Of a stretch of DNA of 64,000 nucleotides, positions 2,129 through 54,100 are shown in pieces (the first letter of the stretch is position 1; the number at the start of each line of letters is the position of its first letter). Position numbers and translations under genes: made by a program. The stretch is from positions 1,240,001 through 1,304,000 of the forward strand of contig NZ_CP072377.1 in NCBI RefSeq assembly GCF_018128225.1. Reading direction: 5' to 3'. The notes below the pieces were generated by a model. That model ran no database searches. It had not been told where the DNA came from and saw nothing but the letters and a program-made list of their open reading frames with translations. This DNA comes from Leptotrichia sp. oral taxon 218 (lineage in GTDB: Bacteria; Fusobacteriota; Fusobacteriia; Fusobacteriales; Leptotrichiaceae).

Positions 2129-3290
2129 TTACACAAAAATTTTTACACACCCTTTTAACAAAAGATTTAAAGCATATTGAAGGATTTTTATTTTATCTTT
2201 ACAATCATCAATATTTTCAAATTCTAAATATCCTACTGTCATATACTGACCTGCTGCAAATCTCTTTTTGTAAAACTCAATTCCTTTTTCTTTCAATTTT
2301 TCTTTTAATTCTTCATAAATTTTATTTCTAATTTCGGAAGAAATTTTCACTTTTTCATCATATTTTTCATCATCTTTATCTCCCAATGAATATTTTACAG
2401 CAATTATATTTTTCTTATTATATATCTCTTTTTCTTTTTTATAAAATTGTTCAATTTGAAGATACAAGTCATTATTAAGTTCTAGCTGATTTTGCCATAA
2501 TTGAAATTTTTTAGTTACTTGAGATATTTCATCCATTTTTAAAGGAAACCACCACATTCCCATAAATCCACCTGATGAGTTATTCACATACCCCCAACTA
2601 CAATCTTTTTGTCTTCCAATAGCATGCTCTAATAATTTTTTTTTTGTTTTTTAATTCTTTAAAAAATCCGATATAACAGTTTGAATTCCAGTCTTCTAAT
2701 TTTTTATCTATATATGAATTTACATCTTTTTCTATATTGTTTAAATAATTATAATAATCTTCAACTAGAATATTATTAAAACTATTTTTATATTTTTCTA
2801 ATAATGCTAGCATATCTTTTCTTTCAAATATTATATCTATACCCTCCTCTTTTAATCTTTCCATATTATCTTCATCGCATATTTTATAATAAACTACTTT
2901 TATTTTAGCTCTACTTCTATTATATTTTTCATTTTTTTCAGATATTATATCTCTATATGTTTTCTGCTGATTACTATGTAAACCTGTTCCCACTTTATCT
3001 TCTATTATTACATACATGTCTACTACAGGAATTTTTTCTATAAATTCTGTTTTATTTTGAATTTCCAATAATACATCTATTTTCTGATATTGTCTTTTTA
3101 TATTTACTTTTCTATCTCCAAGTTTTTCACCTGACATTTTTTCAATAAAGTCAGTTGCAAGCTCTTTTAATTTTTTCTCATCTTCGGATAAATCATTATC
3201 ATCAAAATTTACCCAGTTGCATAACCAACATATAAAAGCATCCTGTGACAGCTCTGACGTTGCAAAATTAAAAATATTGTTTCTTTCCAT
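2129..3290 (-). pseudogene. PD-(D/E)XK nuclease family protein, frameshifted at an A10 run
   Basis: Two frames form one gene. The N-terminal part (from 3290) has the PD-(D/E)XK pattern: Glu13 in TSELSQDAF, Asp72 in KIDVLLEI and Glu97-x-Lys99 in VIIEDKVGTGLHSNQ. It runs out of frame in ten A residues (T10 at 2636-2645 on the plus strand). One base fewer, or two more, restores a continuous frame: ELKNKKLLEHAIGRQKD, then the 152-codon downstream frame beginning MNNSSGGFMGMWWFPL. The restored protein would be about 386 residues, close to the paralogue at 5076-6206. It is last in the minus-strand cluster after the FtsZ-like gene. As read it would stop after 230 residues, keeping the catalytic core but losing the C-terminal domain. 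It may be a pseudogene, slippage-controlled, or a sequence error. Confidence 0.75.
2636..2645. repeat. T10/A10 homopolymer at the nuclease frameshift
   Basis: Ten consecutive T on the plus strand (A10 in the coding strand) exactly where the nuclease frame breaks. A G and six more T follow. Such runs are prone to slippage in replication and transcription, and to sequencing error. Confidence 0.9.
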
Positions 3291-3327
3291 TTTAAATCCC
3301 TTCTTTCTATAATATTAATTAATTTAT

Positions 3328-4035
3328 TTATTTAACTGAATCTTCCACAATGTAAGCAATAATATTTATGAAATTTTCATTTTCTGGATATATTTGCAGT
3401 CCCCAAAGAAATGCCCGCTCATTAAGAATATTAGTCATTATTTTAGCAATATCTTTTATCTGAGTCAATTCGATATTTTTTCCTGCTGTTATATTCAAAA
3501 ATATTTTATAAGTTTTATTTTTATCAAAAGTTTCCAGCTTTAGTTTTAGGTTTTGCAAGAAATCATCAAAAGTTTCTAAATTTCCTTTTTCAAAAATTAC
3601 GAAAGATTTTGAGGTTTTTTGAAATACAGTTTTTAAGTCCGCTAAATCAAGAGTAACCATTCCTTTTGCTGTTAAAGTTTTTGTTATTCCGTTGATTCCA
3701 TTTTTTAAATCTTCTGAAGATTTGCATTTTATGATAAAGTCTGTTTTTGAATCAAATAGGTCAGTATAGCCATTTTCAATATCGTAAATGCCAGTAAAAA
3801 TGTCGTTTTTTTCAGTGTTTCTGATTATTTCTAAGGCAAAATTTTTATCATTTTCAAAATATGTATTTAAAATTATCAAAATTACATCTGTATCTTGAAA
3901 ATTTATTTTTAAATCTTTGTAGTCATTTTTAATTGTAATAATGCTTATATTTTCATGTGTAATTATTTCTTTTTCAATAGTGCTTAGAGCTGTTTCTCCT
4001 AAACTTATAATTTTTATTTTTGGTATTTTTTCCAT
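3328..4035 (-). CDS. short FtsZ-like protein lacking the tubulin GTP-binding signature
   Basis: A 235-residue protein that aligns by eye with FtsZ over most of its length. The N-terminal strand KIKIISLGETALSTIEKEI matches the start of the FtsZ fold. GMVTLDLADLKTVF (125-138) matches the T7 synergy loop (FtsZ LMNVDFADVRTVM) and keeps both aspartates, Asp130 and Asp133. FLNITAGKNIEL (179-190) matches the C-terminal domain strand VLVNITAGFDLRL. GLQIYPE...INIIAYIV matches the last strands. The GGGTGTG loop is absent: the equivalent stretch reads VILIILNTYFEND. The protein is about 80 residues shorter than the FtsZ core. It probably cannot bind GTP normally but may still contact FtsZ or itself. It lies between the WYL regulator and the nuclease gene, with GGAGA upstream of its ATG. 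Function unknown. Confidence 0.65.
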   Translation of the reverse strand: MEKIPKIKIISLGETALSTIEKEIITHENISIITIKNDYKDLKINFQDTDVILIILNTYFENDKNFALEIIRNTEKNDIFTGIYDIENGYTDLFDSKTDFIIKCKSSEDLKNGINGITKTLTAKGMVTLDLADLKTVFQKTSKSFVIFEKGNLETFDDFLQNLKLKLETFDKNKTYKIFLNITAGKNIELTQIKDIAKIMTNILNERAFLWGLQIYPENENFINIIAYIVEDSVK

Positions 4036-4059
4036 AAATTTTCTCCTTTTTATAGAAAT

Positions 4060-5001
4060 TTATTTTAAAATTTTGTATTCAATAACGTAATCTCCCTGAC
4101 TTCGTAGCCACATTTCCGCTCCAAAACTTCCATAAACTTCGATTTTTATAGTATAAACTGTAGTTTCCCGATTATTTTCTTTAACTATTTTTTCATCCAA
4201 TATTTCTGCAGTTGGAAATTTATCAAGCACATACTCGATATAGCCTCTGTATTTAAATTCTATTCTTGTAAGAGGTCCTGAGTGCATAAAATGTATATAT
4301 TTTCTAAATTCTCCATCTTTAAATTTGTCAGAATAATTTAGGATTTTAAACTTCTTGCCTGTATTTTCTATCTTTTTCATTCTATCAATTCTAAAAATTG
4401 CAGGATATTCTTCTTTATTTTCAATATATCCAATTAAATAAAAATAATATTCAGAAAACATTATTGACAGTGGTTTTATTTTATATTCCTTGTATTGTTT
4501 ATCTTTTTTTGTATAATTTAAATGCACCCATTCTTGGTTTTTTATACATTGCGCTAATTTCCAAATGCTTTCGAGTAGTTTCTGTCCATGTTGTAAAGGA
4601 ATATAATTCACCTTTTCACTATTTATCAAATTTTTTATTATCTCTCTATCGTTTATTGAGGAATTGTTAACTAGTTTCGTTATTAATTTTTCAGTTTCTT
4701 CTTTATTAAAAGCCCGACTTTCAAGGATAATTTTACTTATAGCCAAAAGTTCTTCGTTTGTAAAAGCTATCTTGTCATTCTTTTCAAGATAATAACCTTT
4801 TTTTGAACTAGAATATTTTATATCCGATTCACCTTCTTCAAAAAAATAATTCCTCAAAGTAGCTATATCTCGTTGTATCGTTTTTTTATCAACTTTAAAT
4901 TCATTAGCTAAATCACTTCTATTCACTATCTCTTTTTGATTCAACCTTTTCATTATTTTTAATATTCTAATCGATTTTTCCTCAGAATTTTCATTTTTCA
5001 T
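4060..5001 (-). CDS. WYL-domain transcriptional regulator (DeoR-type HTH)
   Basis: A 313-residue protein. Residues about 10-60 form a winged HTH (RILKIMKRLNQKEIVNRSDLA, then VDKKTIQRDIATL). Residues about 150-215 form a WYL domain (HLNYTKKDKQYKEYKIKPLS, FSEYYFYLIGYIE, IFRIDRMKKIE). A C-terminal WCX-like region contains the GSFGAEMWLRSQG motif. WYL regulators sense nucleic-acid-type ligands and often control phage-defence loci; this is family knowledge. It is the second gene of the minus-strand cluster, 24 bases before the FtsZ-like gene, and is the probable local regulator. Confidence 0.9.
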   Translation of the reverse strand: MKNENSEEKSIRILKIMKRLNQKEIVNRSDLANEFKVDKKTIQRDIATLRNYFFEEGESDIKYSSSKKGYYLEKNDKIAFTNEELLAISKIILESRAFNKEETEKLITKLVNNSSINDREIIKNLINSEKVNYIPLQHGQKLLESIWKLAQCIKNQEWVHLNYTKKDKQYKEYKIKPLSIMFSEYYFYLIGYIENKEEYPAIFRIDRMKKIENTGKKFKILNYSDKFKDGEFRKYIHFMHSGPLTRIEFKYRGYIEYVLDKFPTAEILDEKIVKENNRETTVYTIKIEVYGSFGAEMWLRSQGDYVIEYKILK

Positions 5002-5075
5002 GATTAAGATTAAGCCTTTCTAAAAAATTCTTCTCAACGTTTTAATTATACCTTGATTTGTCACTTTTTCAAAAT

Positions 5076-6206
5076 TTAAAACTTTTTCCTAATTTTTCTA
5101 TTACTTCGAAATCTTTTCTTTAATCTCTTCTCTTCAAAATATTCTACATATTCCTCTCTTATGTCTCTACAATTTTTCATTTTATTAAATTTCTCAATTT
5201 TTTCCGTTATTTTATCAACCATTTTTTTTATATCTTTTAATGAACTATCTAGATTTACTGTAAAACACATTAATGGAATTTCATTATTTTCACAATCAAT
5301 ATCTTCATAATTAACTTCCTTAAAATTAGGAAATATATCTTTTAATTCTTTCTGAATTAATTTTATTGTCTTTTCTTCGATTTTATTATCATTAAACCAT
5401 TTTAACAAAAAATAATTATTTGTTTTTTTATCTTCTGCAATTAAATTTACACAAAAACATTCTATAAAAAATTCATGTTTCAACCATTTTATATAATCAA
5501 AACAACGATATACATCATAATCTTCAAATTTTTTATTTATATAACTTTCTAAAACTAAATATAAAGATAAATTTTCGTTAATACTTACACCAAAATTTTT
5601 CTTATTTTCCTGATTAATTTGATTATAATAACTGTCAAAAATACTGTCATCTATATATTTTTTTGAATTTTCAAATAAAGTTAAAAATTTTTCTTTATCG
5701 TATAAAATACTTATTTCTTCTACTTCTTCCTTTTCATACCTAGAAATTAAATCAGATGAAAAATGAACAATTTTTACATTATTCTCTTCGTTTTCTTTTA
5801 AATTCTCATATTTTTTTAATAATTTAATTAATTTCCCATTGTATTCATTAAAATCTTTTGAATATTCGTAATAACTAAAATCTCTGAAATATATATATTT
5901 TCTGTTTCCATTTTGATTCCTATTTAAAATTAACAAAATCGGACAATCACCTAAAATTCTATCAATAAAACTTCCATTTTCAGAATAATAATTTTTATTT
6001 GAAAAATGTATCTCAATATCTTCTGTAGTTAACTTTTCTCCTAAAATTTCCTCAATAAATTTTTTTGCCATATTTTTTAAAGCCACCTTACTGCTATTAT
6101 TTGTAGTCTCAACATTTAACCATTTTATCATCCAATATAAAAAAATATCGGTATCAAACTCAGCGTTATAAAAAGCATCATTTTTAACTAATTTTACATT
6201 ACTCAT
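5076..6206 (-). CDS. PD-(D/E)XK-like protein with degenerate active site
   Basis: The start is placed at the ATG at 6204-6206, nine bases after GAGGAG; the ATG three codons upstream abuts that site. The 376-residue protein resembles the nuclease at 2129-3290 in layout: an N-terminal FYNAEFDTDIFLYWMIKWLN corresponds to its FATSELSQDAFICWLCNWVN, and a MAKKFIEEILGEKL helix corresponds to LATDFIEKMSGEKL. However, the Glu-x-Lys of the catalytic strand is replaced: YIYFRDFSYYEYS stands where the paralogue has YVIIEDKVGTGLHS. Nuclease activity is therefore unlikely. It may be a partner, an inhibitor or a decaying copy. It is first in the four-gene cluster. Confidence 0.6.
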   Translation of the reverse strand: MSNVKLVKNDAFYNAEFDTDIFLYWMIKWLNVETTNNSSKVALKNMAKKFIEEILGEKLTTEDIEIHFSNKNYYSENGSFIDRILGDCPILLILNRNQNGNRKYIYFRDFSYYEYSKDFNEYNGKLIKLLKKYENLKENEENNVKIVHFSSDLISRYEKEEVEEISILYDKEKFLTLFENSKKYIDDSIFDSYYNQINQENKKNFGVSINENLSLYLVLESYINKKFEDYDVYRCFDYIKWLKHEFFIECFCVNLIAEDKKTNNYFLLKWFNDNKIEEKTIKLIQKELKDIFPNFKEVNYEDIDCENNEIPLMCFTVNLDSSLKDIKKMVDKITEKIEKFNKMKNCRDIREEYVEYFEEKRLKKRFRSNRKIRKKF

Positions 6207-6340
6207 TTTCCCCATCTCCTCAACTTTATTTTTGTTATCTAATTATACTTTTTATATGAGACATATTTTGTCCCTTTAGAATAAAAATTTATTTTTTTAA
6301 AATTTTATAACTACAATATCAAATGCAACATTTTTTCATC

Positions 6341-6426: not shown

Positions 6427-7575
6427 ATGGTAAACCGTATCATTTTAAATGAAGTATCTTATCATGGATTTGGAGCAATTGAATCTATTCCAGGTGAAGT
6501 GGAAAAAAATAAATTCAAAAAGGCTTTTATTTGTACAGATCCTGGATTAATTAAAGCTGGAGCAGCTAAAAAAATTACTGATATACTTGATAAAGCTAAT
6601 TTGGAATATTTAATATTTTCTGATGTTCAACAAAATCCTACAATTGAAAATGTAAAAGCTGGAGTTGAAAAATTTAAAGAAAGTGGTGCAGATTATATTA
6701 TTGCAATTGGTGGAGGTTCTGCTATGGATTGTGCCAAAGCTGTAGCAATTATTATAAATAATCCTGAATTTTCTGATGTTCGAAGTCTTGAAGGAGTTGC
6801 AGATACAAAAAATAAATGCGTTCCAATAATCGCAGTTGCAACTACAGCTGGAACAGCTGCCGAAGTTACAATAAATTATGTTATAACTGATGTTGAAAAA
6901 AATAGAAAATTTGTCTGTGTTGACCCACACGATATGCCAATAGTTGCGATAGTTGATCCAGGAATGATGATGACAATGCCAAAAGAATTGACAGCTGCAA
7001 CTGGACTTGATGCACTAACTCATGCAATCGAAGGATTTACAACAAAAGCTGCTTGGGAAATGACTGACATGTTCCATTTAAAAGCAATTGAATTAATAGC
7101 AAAATATTTGAGAAAAGCTGTGGAAAATGACGAAGAAGCTAAAGAAAAAATGGCTCTTGCCTCATATTTAGCAGGAATGGGATTCTCAAATGTAGGCCTT
7201 GGAATTGTACACTCAATGGCTCATCCTCTAGGAGCATTTTACGGAACTCCGCACGGTGTTGCAAACGCTATAATTTTACCAACTGTAATGGAATACAATG
7301 CTGAATATACAGGGGAAAAATTTAGAGAAATAGCAAAAGCTTTTGGAATAAAACATACTAAAAGAATGGCTCCCGAAGAATATAGAAAAGCAGCAGTAGA
7401 GGCTGTAAGACAATTGGCACATGACGTAAATATTCCTGAAAATTTAAAGGGAATAATGGATATAAAAGATTTAGATTTTATCGCTGAATCAGCTTTGAAT
7501 GATGTTTGTACTGGCGGAAATCCACGAGATACAAACTTGGAAGAAATAAAAGAACTTTATAAAAAATTGTTGTAA
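6427..7575 (+). CDS. fucO: lactaldehyde reductase / iron-containing alcohol dehydrogenase
   Basis: A 382-residue group III (iron-dependent) alcohol dehydrogenase. The nucleotide-binding segment IIAIGGGSAMDCAKAVA and the metal-binding signature GLDALTHAIEGF, with the later histidines of GIVHSMAHPLGAFYGTPHG, are all present. The length equals E. coli FucO (382), and the VAVATTAGTAAEVT-type region favours lactaldehyde:propanediol oxidoreductase, which reduces L-lactaldehyde to 1,2-propanediol with NADH. No fucose or rhamnose genes are beside it, so the physiological substrate is unproven. It is monocistronic, with its own promoter and terminator. Confidence 0.88.
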   Translation: MVNRIILNEVSYHGFGAIESIPGEVEKNKFKKAFICTDPGLIKAGAAKKITDILDKANLEYLIFSDVQQNPTIENVKAGVEKFKESGADYIIAIGGGSAMDCAKAVAIIINNPEFSDVRSLEGVADTKNKCVPIIAVATTAGTAAEVTINYVITDVEKNRKFVCVDPHDMPIVAIVDPGMMMTMPKELTAATGLDALTHAIEGFTTKAAWEMTDMFHLKAIELIAKYLRKAVENDEEAKEKMALASYLAGMGFSNVGLGIVHSMAHPLGAFYGTPHGVANAIILPTVMEYNAEYTGEKFREIAKAFGIKHTKRMAPEEYRKAAVEAVRQLAHDVNIPENLKGIMDIKDLDFIAESALNDVCTGGNPRDTNLEEIKELYKKLL

Positions 7576-51179: not shown

Positions 51180-54100
51180 TTATTTAAAGAATTTAATTCC
51201 ATTTCTAAAGATATTTTGTTCTTTATCTCCATAAATATTTTTATAAACATTTTTACCTTTTCTTTCAGAATGTCCCATTTTACCAAAGATTCTACCATTA
51301 TATGCCAACATTCCTTCAATCGCATAATACGAACCATTTGGATTAAATTGTGAATCCATTGTCGAATTTCCATCCAAATCAACATATTTAGTTGCAATTT
51401 GATTATTTTTAAATAATTTTTTGTATTCTTCTTCTGTAATAACAATTCTTCCTTCTCCGTGAGAAATCGCTACTGAATGAATATCTCCTTCTTTCATATT
51501 AGCTAACCAAGGTGAATTATTTGTAATAATTTTTGTTTGCACAATTTTCGACATATGTTTGTCAATTGTATTAAATGTCAATGTTGGCGAAGTTTCATTT
51601 AATTCCCGAATTTCTCCGTAAGGTAACAATCCTGATTTAATCAACGCTTGGAATCCATTACAAATTCCTAAAATTAATCCATCTCTCTTCAATAGATTTT
51701 CCACTGCTTCTTTAACTTTTTTATTTTTCAATACAGCAACCATAAATTTAGCCGATCCATCTGGTTCATCTCCCGCACTAAATCCACCAGGCAACATCAA
51801 TATTTGCGAATTATTAATTTCTTTAACAAAATTATCAATTGAACTTAAAATATTGTTATGTGACAAGTTATTAAATACACCTATTTTCGCAAGTCCACCT
51901 TCTCTATTAAACGCTCTTTCCAAGTCATATTCTGAGTTTGTTCCAGGGAATACTGGAATAAATACTCTTGGTTTCGCATAAGCGTTTGAAATATTGCTAA
52001 TTATATTTTCATGCTCAATTTTTTCAAGTTTCTCATATTCAACACCTTTACAATGTGCAATTCTATGTTCTTCTGCCACTTCTTTTTTAGTTGGAAACAC
52101 TTTTTCAAGCGGTTTTTCCCACTCAGCAATCAATTCATCTAAATCCATCACTGTATCATTATTTATAACAATTTTTGCTTCTTCGGTAACTTTTCCTAAC
52201 AATGTAGCATTTTTATAATCAATTTTTTCAGGAGTTTCAATTATAAATGCTCCATAATTAACTTTAAACCATTCATTTTCCGCATTTTCAGCAAAGTTTA
52301 CATTTACACCTAATTTATTACCAAATGTCATTTTTGCTATACTTTCAGCAATTCCACCGTTTTTAACAGCTACTGACGCAACAATCTTCTTATCTTTAAT
52401 ATTTTTTTCGATGAAATCAAAGTTTTCTTTCAATTCTTTCAAGTCTGGCAAGTCATTTTCATCTAATTTAGTCGTAATCAAGTAAATATTATCTCCCGCT
52501 TTTTTAAATTCACTCGAAACAACATCTTCAGCATTTACAACACTTACAGCAAACGAAACTAATGTTGGCGGAACTGAAATATCATTAAATGTTCCACTCA
52601 TCGAATCTTTTCCACCAATTGAAGGCAATCCAAATTCTTTTTGAATATGTAATGCTCCCAATAATGCTGATAATGGTCTTCCCCATTTTTTAGCATCATT
52701 TCCTAATCTTTCAAAATATTCTTGGAATGTAAATCTTACATTTTTGTAATTTCCTCCAGCTGCTACAACTTTAGCCAAAGATTCAATTACCGCATAAGCT
52801 CCTCCGTGGAATGGAATTTGTTTTGCAATGTAAGGATTGTATCCATATCCAACCATTGACGCAACATCTGTTTCAGCATTTATCACTGACACTTTTTGTA
52901 CAGAAACTTCAGCTGGTGTTAATTGATATTTACCACCAAACGGCATTAATACTGTACTTGCTCCAATTGTCGAATCAAAAGTTTCAACCAATCCTCTTTG
53001 AGAAGTTACATTCAAGTCTTTCAAGTTATTAATAAATTTTTCTTTAAATGTATTTCCAGCAATTTCTCTATCCAACACCAATTTATTAGAATTTTCAATT
53101 TCAATATTAATATTTGAAGACGCTCCGTTTGTATTCAAAAAATCTCTCGAAATATCAACAATTGTTTCTCCATTGTAAGTCATAACCAATCTGTTAGAAT
53201 CATTAATTTCAGCAACTTTGTAAGCCTCTAAGTTTTCTTCAGTCGCATATTCAACAAATTTATCTAAATCTTCTTTTCTAATTACAACTGCCATTCTTTC
53301 TTGTGATTCAGAAATCGCCAATTCAGTTCCAGTAAGTCCAATATATTTAACTCTAATTTCATTCAAGTCAATTACCAATCCGTCAGCAAGTTCTCCTATC
53401 GCAACTGAAACTCCTCCGGCACCAAAATCATTACATTTTTTAATCAATGTCGTAACATTTTTATTTCTAAATAATCTTTGGATTTTTCTTTCAGTAACTG
53501 CATTCCCTTTTTGAACTTCAGCACTTGATTTTTCTGATGATTCTGTAGTATGTTCTTTAGATGAACCAGTAGCTCCACCAATTCCGTCTCTTCCTGTTCT
53601 TCCACCTAAAAGTACTACGATATCTCCCGCTTCAGGTTTTTCACGAATAATATTTTCAGCTGGTGCAGCTCCTACAACAAGTCCTAATTCCATTCTTTTC
53701 GCTTTATAACCTTCATCATAAATTTCATTTACATGAGTTGTCGCAAGTCCAATTTGGTTTCCATAAGATGAAAATCCATGTGCAGCAGTTTTTGTAATAA
53801 CTTTTTGAGGTAATTTACCTTTTATCGTGTCTTCAATTCTTTCAGTTGGATCTCCAGCTCCACTTATTCTAACTGCTTGATAAATAAAAGTTCTTCCTGA
53901 TAATGGATCTCTAATTGCTCCACCTATACAAGTTGCAGCTCCTCCAAATGGTTCAATTTCTGTAGGGTGATTATGTGTTTCATTTTTAAATTGTAAAATC
54001 CATTTTTCTTCAGTTATTTCTGCTTTCCCATCTTCATTTATTCTTTCCACAGGAACATCAATGTAAATCGAACAAGCATTAATTTCATCAGAAACTTCTA

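Follow-up and report, generated by a model that had tools for sequence, protein, structure and literature searches.

A conserved and exchangeable WYL-nuclease module with a relic of FtsZ in Leptotrichia

What kind of unit is formed when a WYL-domain regulator, two PD-(D/E)XK-like proteins and a degenerate relative of FtsZ are encoded side by side, and what could such a unit do for a bacterium? The question is raised by four genes of Leptotrichia sp. oral taxon 218, which lie at 2129-6206 of the window, the stretch of 64,000 nucleotides that we analysed. All are on the minus strand in the transcription order PD2, WYL, FtsZ-A and PD1, with intergenic gaps of 74, 24 and 37 nt (Table 1). The earlier note on this DNA, made from the sequence alone, had described a minus-strand cluster of four genes with short gaps, and its coordinates and strand were confirmed. 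The gene content and order that it gave also stood, but PD1 is split in the window and is not the single reading frame that the note had assumed. The reading frame of PD2 opens at 6215, and the relatives start at the methionine at 6206. The note knew of no named system with this composition; this agrees with the open-licence literature, in the titles and abstract starts of which we found no description of the module. No terminators were found, and nothing in the window matched Rfam at gathering scores.

Table 1. Features of the module and of its upstream region (positions in the window)
Feature	Position	Strand	Remark
PD2: PD-(D/E)XK-like paralogue, catalytic residues lost	5076..6206	-	
WYL-domain transcription regulator (HTH_11 + WYL)	4060..5001	-	
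FtsZ-A: degenerate FtsZ-like protein	3328..4035	-	T4 lost, T7 aspartates kept, without C-terminal tail
PD1 N-terminal part, live PDDEXK_4 motif	2598..3290	-	
PD1 C-terminal part, after reading-frame break	2129..2587	-	
Putative WYL operator, palindrome GACA-N5-TGTC	6260..6272	.	at expected -35 box position
-10 box TATAAT	6242..6247	-	12 nt downstream of palindrome
Promoter-like site upstream of WYL, TTGAAA-16-TATAAT	5045..5072	-	11/12 consensus matches

Because the gene order is conserved in relatives and dN/dS of FtsZ-A is 0.055-0.444 among close copies, the cluster is more than a chance arrangement. We compared 14 genomes, 13 of Leptotrichia and G022. FtsZ-A (at least 46% identity) and the WYL protein (at least 82%) co-occur in ten of them (G000, G002-G007, G009, G010 and G022); G001, G008, G011 and G012 have neither FtsZ-A nor the module WYL gene, although in G001 a more distant WYL survives as a broken remnant. 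The regulator adjoins FtsZ-A in all ten genomes that have FtsZ-A, which bears out the conserved neighbourhood expected from the earlier note, and FtsZ-A is placed between WYL and a nuclease in 10/10 loci. PD2 accompanies them in nine genomes, split in G003 and G007, and is absent from G004. The last slot is exchangeable, being occupied by PD1 in six genomes (G000, G003, G005, G022, G009 and G010) and by an Mrr_cat-type nuclease in the other four (G002, G004, G006 and G007). This is a real, conserved and exchangeable WYL-nuclease module that carries a relic of FtsZ.

The place of FtsZ-A in it is less fixed. In G019, which belongs to another genus, PD2 (46%), WYL (69%) and Mrr (87%) are adjacent without FtsZ-A, and the genome gives a single FtsZ match; G026 has a WYL-PD1 remnant. 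It follows from the arrangement in G019 and from the distribution that the core consists of WYL, the nuclease and PD2, and that FtsZ-A is an addition in Leptotrichia and G022, so the earlier note went too far in counting the FtsZ-like subunit as a set part. The histories of the genes also differ. Between G000 and G006, dS is 0.16 for FtsZ-A, 0.80 for WYL and 0.81 for PD2, and between G000 and G004 the WYL proteins are 92% identical and the FtsZ-A proteins 46%. Judged from these divergences, the parts of the module have been exchanged separately and its ancestry is mosaic. The flanks in the window are metabolic, a pyroglutamyl peptidase gene (pcp) and an iron ADH. When both were compared in G012, no clean empty insertion site was found, because pcp and ADH are far apart there. 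A second ADH gene, at G000:C1:26161-27306, is 98% identical to the adjoining one (window 6427-7575). A TnpB-type IS605 gene directly follows the module in G003 (L042:7997-9094).

The two PD-(D/E)XK-like proteins differ in their active sites. The D ... E-x-K motif is present in all four PD1 rows of our alignment, and the acidic and E-x-K positions are lost in all five PD2 rows, in agreement with the dead and live pair proposed in the earlier note. The PDDEXK_4 profile scored 17.3 bits (E 0.005) on the PD1 half in the window and 16.0 bits on the G010 copy, with a cutoff of 22.3, which the homologue in G003 exceeds (23.7 bits, E 5e-5). PD2 gave no Pfam match, and its kinship with PD1 comes from blastp (23% identity, E 1e-6 to 2e-7). 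In PADLOC, PD1 matches the candidate PDC-S26 (E 3e-6); this is a partial match over about 60 residues, and PDC-S26 is a single-gene candidate. For Mrr and PD2, no PADLOC model gave a convincing match. The D ... Q-x-K residues of Mrr_cat are visible in all four Leptotrichiaceae rows; G006 scores 22.0 against a cutoff of 21, G002 and G004 fall below it, and the gene of G004 looks split. PD2 is found with both nuclease types and so is not tied exclusively to PD1. A search for PD2 in phages gave no match.

Several copies of these genes are broken. In contrast to the two reading frames in the window, five relatives (G003, G005, G022, G009 and G010) encode PD1 homologues of 373-402 aa in one uninterrupted ORF, and the break (window 2587-2598) is at an A tract that is not of the same length in the relatives. 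The reading frame is also interrupted in PD2 of G003 (L042) and G007 (L053) and in FtsZ-A of G007. These copies point to loss or decay, phase variation or sequencing error.

FtsZ-A, with 235 aa, has lost the GTP-binding motif. TIGR00065 recognizes it with E 8e-9 and 35 bits, far under the equivalog cutoff of 295, and Pfam FtsZ_C with E 0.007 and 17 bits against a cutoff of 27, which the variant of G004 passes with 30.3 bits; its best PDB FtsZ match has E 3e-8. We aligned four FtsZ-A rows with 17 other rows of the FtsZ family. All four FtsZ-A rows have lost the tubulin signature GGGTGTG (T4) along with some 60-70 residues of the nucleotide domain, and all four keep the catalytic Asp pair of the T7 loop, as do 21/21 rows overall. 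Because the nucleotide pocket was lost but both T7-loop aspartates were kept, FtsZ-A would most likely dock on host FtsZ at one end and block its extension. A comparison of the two FtsZ-A types speaks against any particular importance of the T7 face, since the conservation of this region (48% identity) is no better than that of the remaining protein (51% and 41%); toward host FtsZ it is 29% identical and the remainder 18-23%. Divergent FtsZ-like proteins alongside a normal FtsZ have been described before as FtsZl1 and FtsZl2; according to that report (PMC2875224), they keep T1 and T4 and are found in vWA/GTPase operons or alone, whereas FtsZ-A has lost T4 and sits with WYL and a nuclease.

Up to three further FtsZ-like paralogues occur per Leptotrichia genome. 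FtsZ-B (about 305 aa; L035, L041, L047, L059) has a nearly intact signature, and FtsZ-C (299-325 aa) and FtsZ-D (268-284 aa) have lost it (L040, L043, L054), so that a milder version of the degeneration of FtsZ-A is seen in C and D. A ToxN-type toxin gene (Pfam 4e-36) is located between FtsZ-C and FtsZ-D in five loci (L040:5801-6340, L052, L054, L057, L065), and G004 has other insertions there.

It may be asked whether FtsZ-A is merely a passenger from this FtsZ-like pool, captured by recombination, with PD2, WYL and the nuclease as the module proper. The presence of FtsZ-B, FtsZ-C and FtsZ-D in the genus, the position of FtsZ-C directly beside the module in G005 and the absence of FtsZ-A from G019 would suit such an origin. 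However, FtsZ-A has the same place in all ten loci, and the dN/dS values among close copies, together with 0.44-0.53 in comparisons with G004, indicate that FtsZ-A is kept by purifying selection. In the tree it moreover forms a separate clade (100/100) with a long branch and is not nested in B, C or D. We thus consider it quite unlikely that FtsZ-A is a passenger. Its parent cannot be named because the stem is very long (2.88). FtsZ-A had no match in plasmids, and a search of genome contigs, by a method that reaches close relatives only, found one relative, L. hongkongensis.

In the regulator of the window, the WYL domain (E 5e-11, 42.9 bits) and the HTH_11 domain (E 3e-7, 30.6 bits) are both above cutoff, and 12 WYL rows align over the full length. 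A survey of 389 genomes, in which at most five candidates were scored per genome, gave at least 19 at E <= 1e-30, all in the Fusobacteriales families f1 and f4; on plasmids, the subfamily was found in 17 records. The plasmid operons headed by it encode BnzB-like proteins, dynamins, a relative of PDC-M40B and glycine-zipper proteins. We compared 10 partner proteins from 8 other operons with PADLOC, a set that leaves out the Fusobacterium-family operons G066, G038, G048, G076 and G044. Eight matched at E <= 0.01, in seven of the eight operons, led by BnzA (5e-128), RTasNERD-Hel (4e-67), PDC-M40B (7e-37), LeoA (3e-14) and BnzB (2e-13), with several matches being weak (LeoBC, 4e-6) or due to shared GTPase or helicase domains. 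These partners lend support to the earlier note, but the metabolic genes that flank the module in the window are no defence island. The BnzA/BnzB-like, LeoA-like dynamin, PDC-M40B and NERD-helicase operons resemble the module in having a homologous WYL (37-48% identical) as the first gene, and differ from it in their effectors and in the lack of FtsZ-A; no match to BnzA, BnzB, LeoA or LeoBC was found among the five window proteins. A role in defence in the wide sense is, in our judgement, quite probable.

These operons also share a putative operator. The palindrome GACA-N5-TGTC is found exactly upstream of 17 of 28 WYL-subfamily operons, compared to a mean of 0.04 and a maximum of 1 in shuffled sequences (38 regions); the N5 spacing was picked after inspection of upstream regions, so this count is partly post hoc, and the independent number is below 17 because many of these operons are from close relatives. 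The exact palindrome is missing in 11 operons, namely those of G005 and G026, the C. difficile, Lactococcus (four) and E. eligens plasmid operons, and those of G048, G076 (one mismatch) and G044; the G005 copy is of the window's own module type. A -10 box follows 11-13 nt downstream of the palindrome in 20/20 sites examined, exact in 17, with no good -35 box beneath the palindrome. The palindrome and -10 box together occur 11 times in the 13 Leptotrichia genomes, compared to 3 in the reversed control; 10 of the 11 lie before WYL-subfamily operons, and none is in the four genomes without the module WYL gene. On IMG/VR contigs the palindrome is present in 5/8 WYL loci, at 43-56 nt upstream of the gene; of these five loci, three are near-identical. 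The IMG/VR and 13-genome counts come from sequence unused in choosing N5, though most Leptotrichia promoters had already been inspected. The one combined match away from WYL operons is at G005:C1:1042568-1042599.

The uniqueness of the palindrome in the window (one match, 0.27 expected) is not significant alone, as 23 of 100 shuffles contain at least one; in G000 the reversed control also gives one match, and the loci hold 53 matches in 968,221 bases, overlaps and operator copies included. The alternative spacing GACA-N6-TGTC was rejected, its single window match at 51550 being away from the operon. The promoter-like site before WYL is weak, since there were 47 such sites compared to 35.4 +/- 6.5 in shuffles.

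A palindrome at the position of the -35 box would fit a repressor or an activator of the DriD type. According to PMC9122601, regulators of the BrxR/CapW type are HTH and WYL proteins, first genes of defence operons, with an inverted repeat near the promoter; the two arms of the repeats to which the BrxR repressors bind are 5 bp apart, and these repressors are found next to many defence systems. The module agrees in these features and differs in its short 4+5+4 palindrome, a putative operator, and in its putatively regulated genes, those for a nuclease, for the dead PD2 and for the relic of FtsZ. In this comparison, the A1 profile matched no PDB chain at E 0.001. In Caulobacter, the WYL factor DriD switches on DidA, which inhibits division (PMC4211646), and DriD binds ssDNA (PMC12340889). 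That pair is similar to the module in tying a WYL factor to a division inhibitor and in a site near -35/-10; unlike FtsZ-A, DidA is no paralogue of FtsZ but a small membrane protein that acts at FtsW/I/N, and the pair is without a nuclease.

The precedent of DriD and DidA (PMC4211646, PMC12340889), like the -10 box without a good -35 box, could also mean that the module is a stress checkpoint and not immunity, in which WYL would sense ssDNA after damage, FtsZ-A would delay division and the nuclease would process DNA. However, the patchy presence (10/14), the exchange of nucleases and the mosaic ancestry fit accessory immunity better, and the partners of the WYL subfamily match defence models. 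A pure checkpoint therefore seems rather improbable to us.

Other operons of the subfamily also contain look-alikes of host proteins. In G007 and G010 an HPr-like protein (Pfam 3e-15; L159:5035-5901, L161:3707-4603), whose catalytic His is replaced by Asp, is encoded one or two genes after a second subfamily WYL, with dynamin pieces next. On pNP40 (L147:6113-7573) a 486-aa protein has EF-Tu domain III at its C terminus (E 7e-23, 47% identical to EF-Tu) and lies, together with a BnzB-like gene, in an operon headed by WYL. A shared N-terminal part of this fusion and the E. eligens dynamin was considered and rejected, as blastp finds no similarity. With FtsZ-A, there are three mimics among the operon types seen. 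According to PMC7159879, FtsZ/tubulin domains are rare among the effectors of predicted conflict systems, and other such systems have inactive modules drawn from cellular subsystems, for which dominant-negative action was suggested. Given the HPr-like protein lacking the His and the EF-Tu domain III fusion elsewhere in the subfamily, it is possible that disabled copies serve the class as baits or dominant negatives. Our tentative and still doubtful proposal is that one class of defence operons switched by WYL has taken up crippled versions of essential host proteins in this way (FtsZ lacking the GTP pocket, HPr lacking the catalytic His, and EF-Tu domain III), so that an attacker or imitator of the host target would trigger or power immunity.

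For FtsZ-A this would mean a bait: phage FtsZ inhibitors would bind the disabled copy and thereby release the nuclease or the regulator. The three look-alikes in one WYL class are in line with this, and so is the FtsZ-A that differs by 54% beside a WYL protein 92% identical, as arms-race genes may. However, FtsZ-A is otherwise at least 92% identical among eight close copies, its physical link to WYL or the nuclease is only putative, and a mimic of this kind is absent from most of the subfamily's other operons. We also know of no FtsZ inhibitor of Leptotrichia phages. We regard a bait as unlikely.

Instead, we suggest with moderate confidence that the cluster is a WYL-switched, probably abortive, defence or DNA-damage module in which FtsZ-A most likely blocks division. 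The WYL factor would probably sense infection or DNA damage through a nucleic-acid or nucleotide signal and switch the one operon through GACA-N5-TGTC, either as a repressor like BrxR or as an activator like DriD. The exchangeable slot would supply a nuclease, PDDEXK_4 or Mrr, presumably directed at DNA, and the dead paralogue PD2 may hold, pair with or restrain it. Division stopped during DNA cutting would amount to an abortive or dormancy response, and the module may be mobile or recombining. We infer division arrest and DNA cleavage from sequence. In favour of the reading as a whole count the ten of 14 genomes with both FtsZ-A and WYL against none of the four others, the six PD1 against four Mrr genes in one slot, the conservation of the putative operator and promoter, the defence models matched by PD1 and by partners of the WYL subfamily, the purifying selection on FtsZ-A and its pattern of T7 kept and T4 lost. 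Against it count that FtsZ-A is dispensable to the arrangement (G019; the remnant of G026), the unexceptional conservation of the T7 region, the PADLOC result for Mrr and PD2, the 11 operons in which the exact palindrome is missing, and the broken copies.

The idea of the integrated decoy is known from plants. If the pattern of host mimics is true, bacteria would possess an immune counterpart of it. The conserved putative operator is a handle on the regulon and for finding further modules. If FtsZ-A blocks division under the control of WYL, the arrest subunit of the module would be a relic of the division protein itself.
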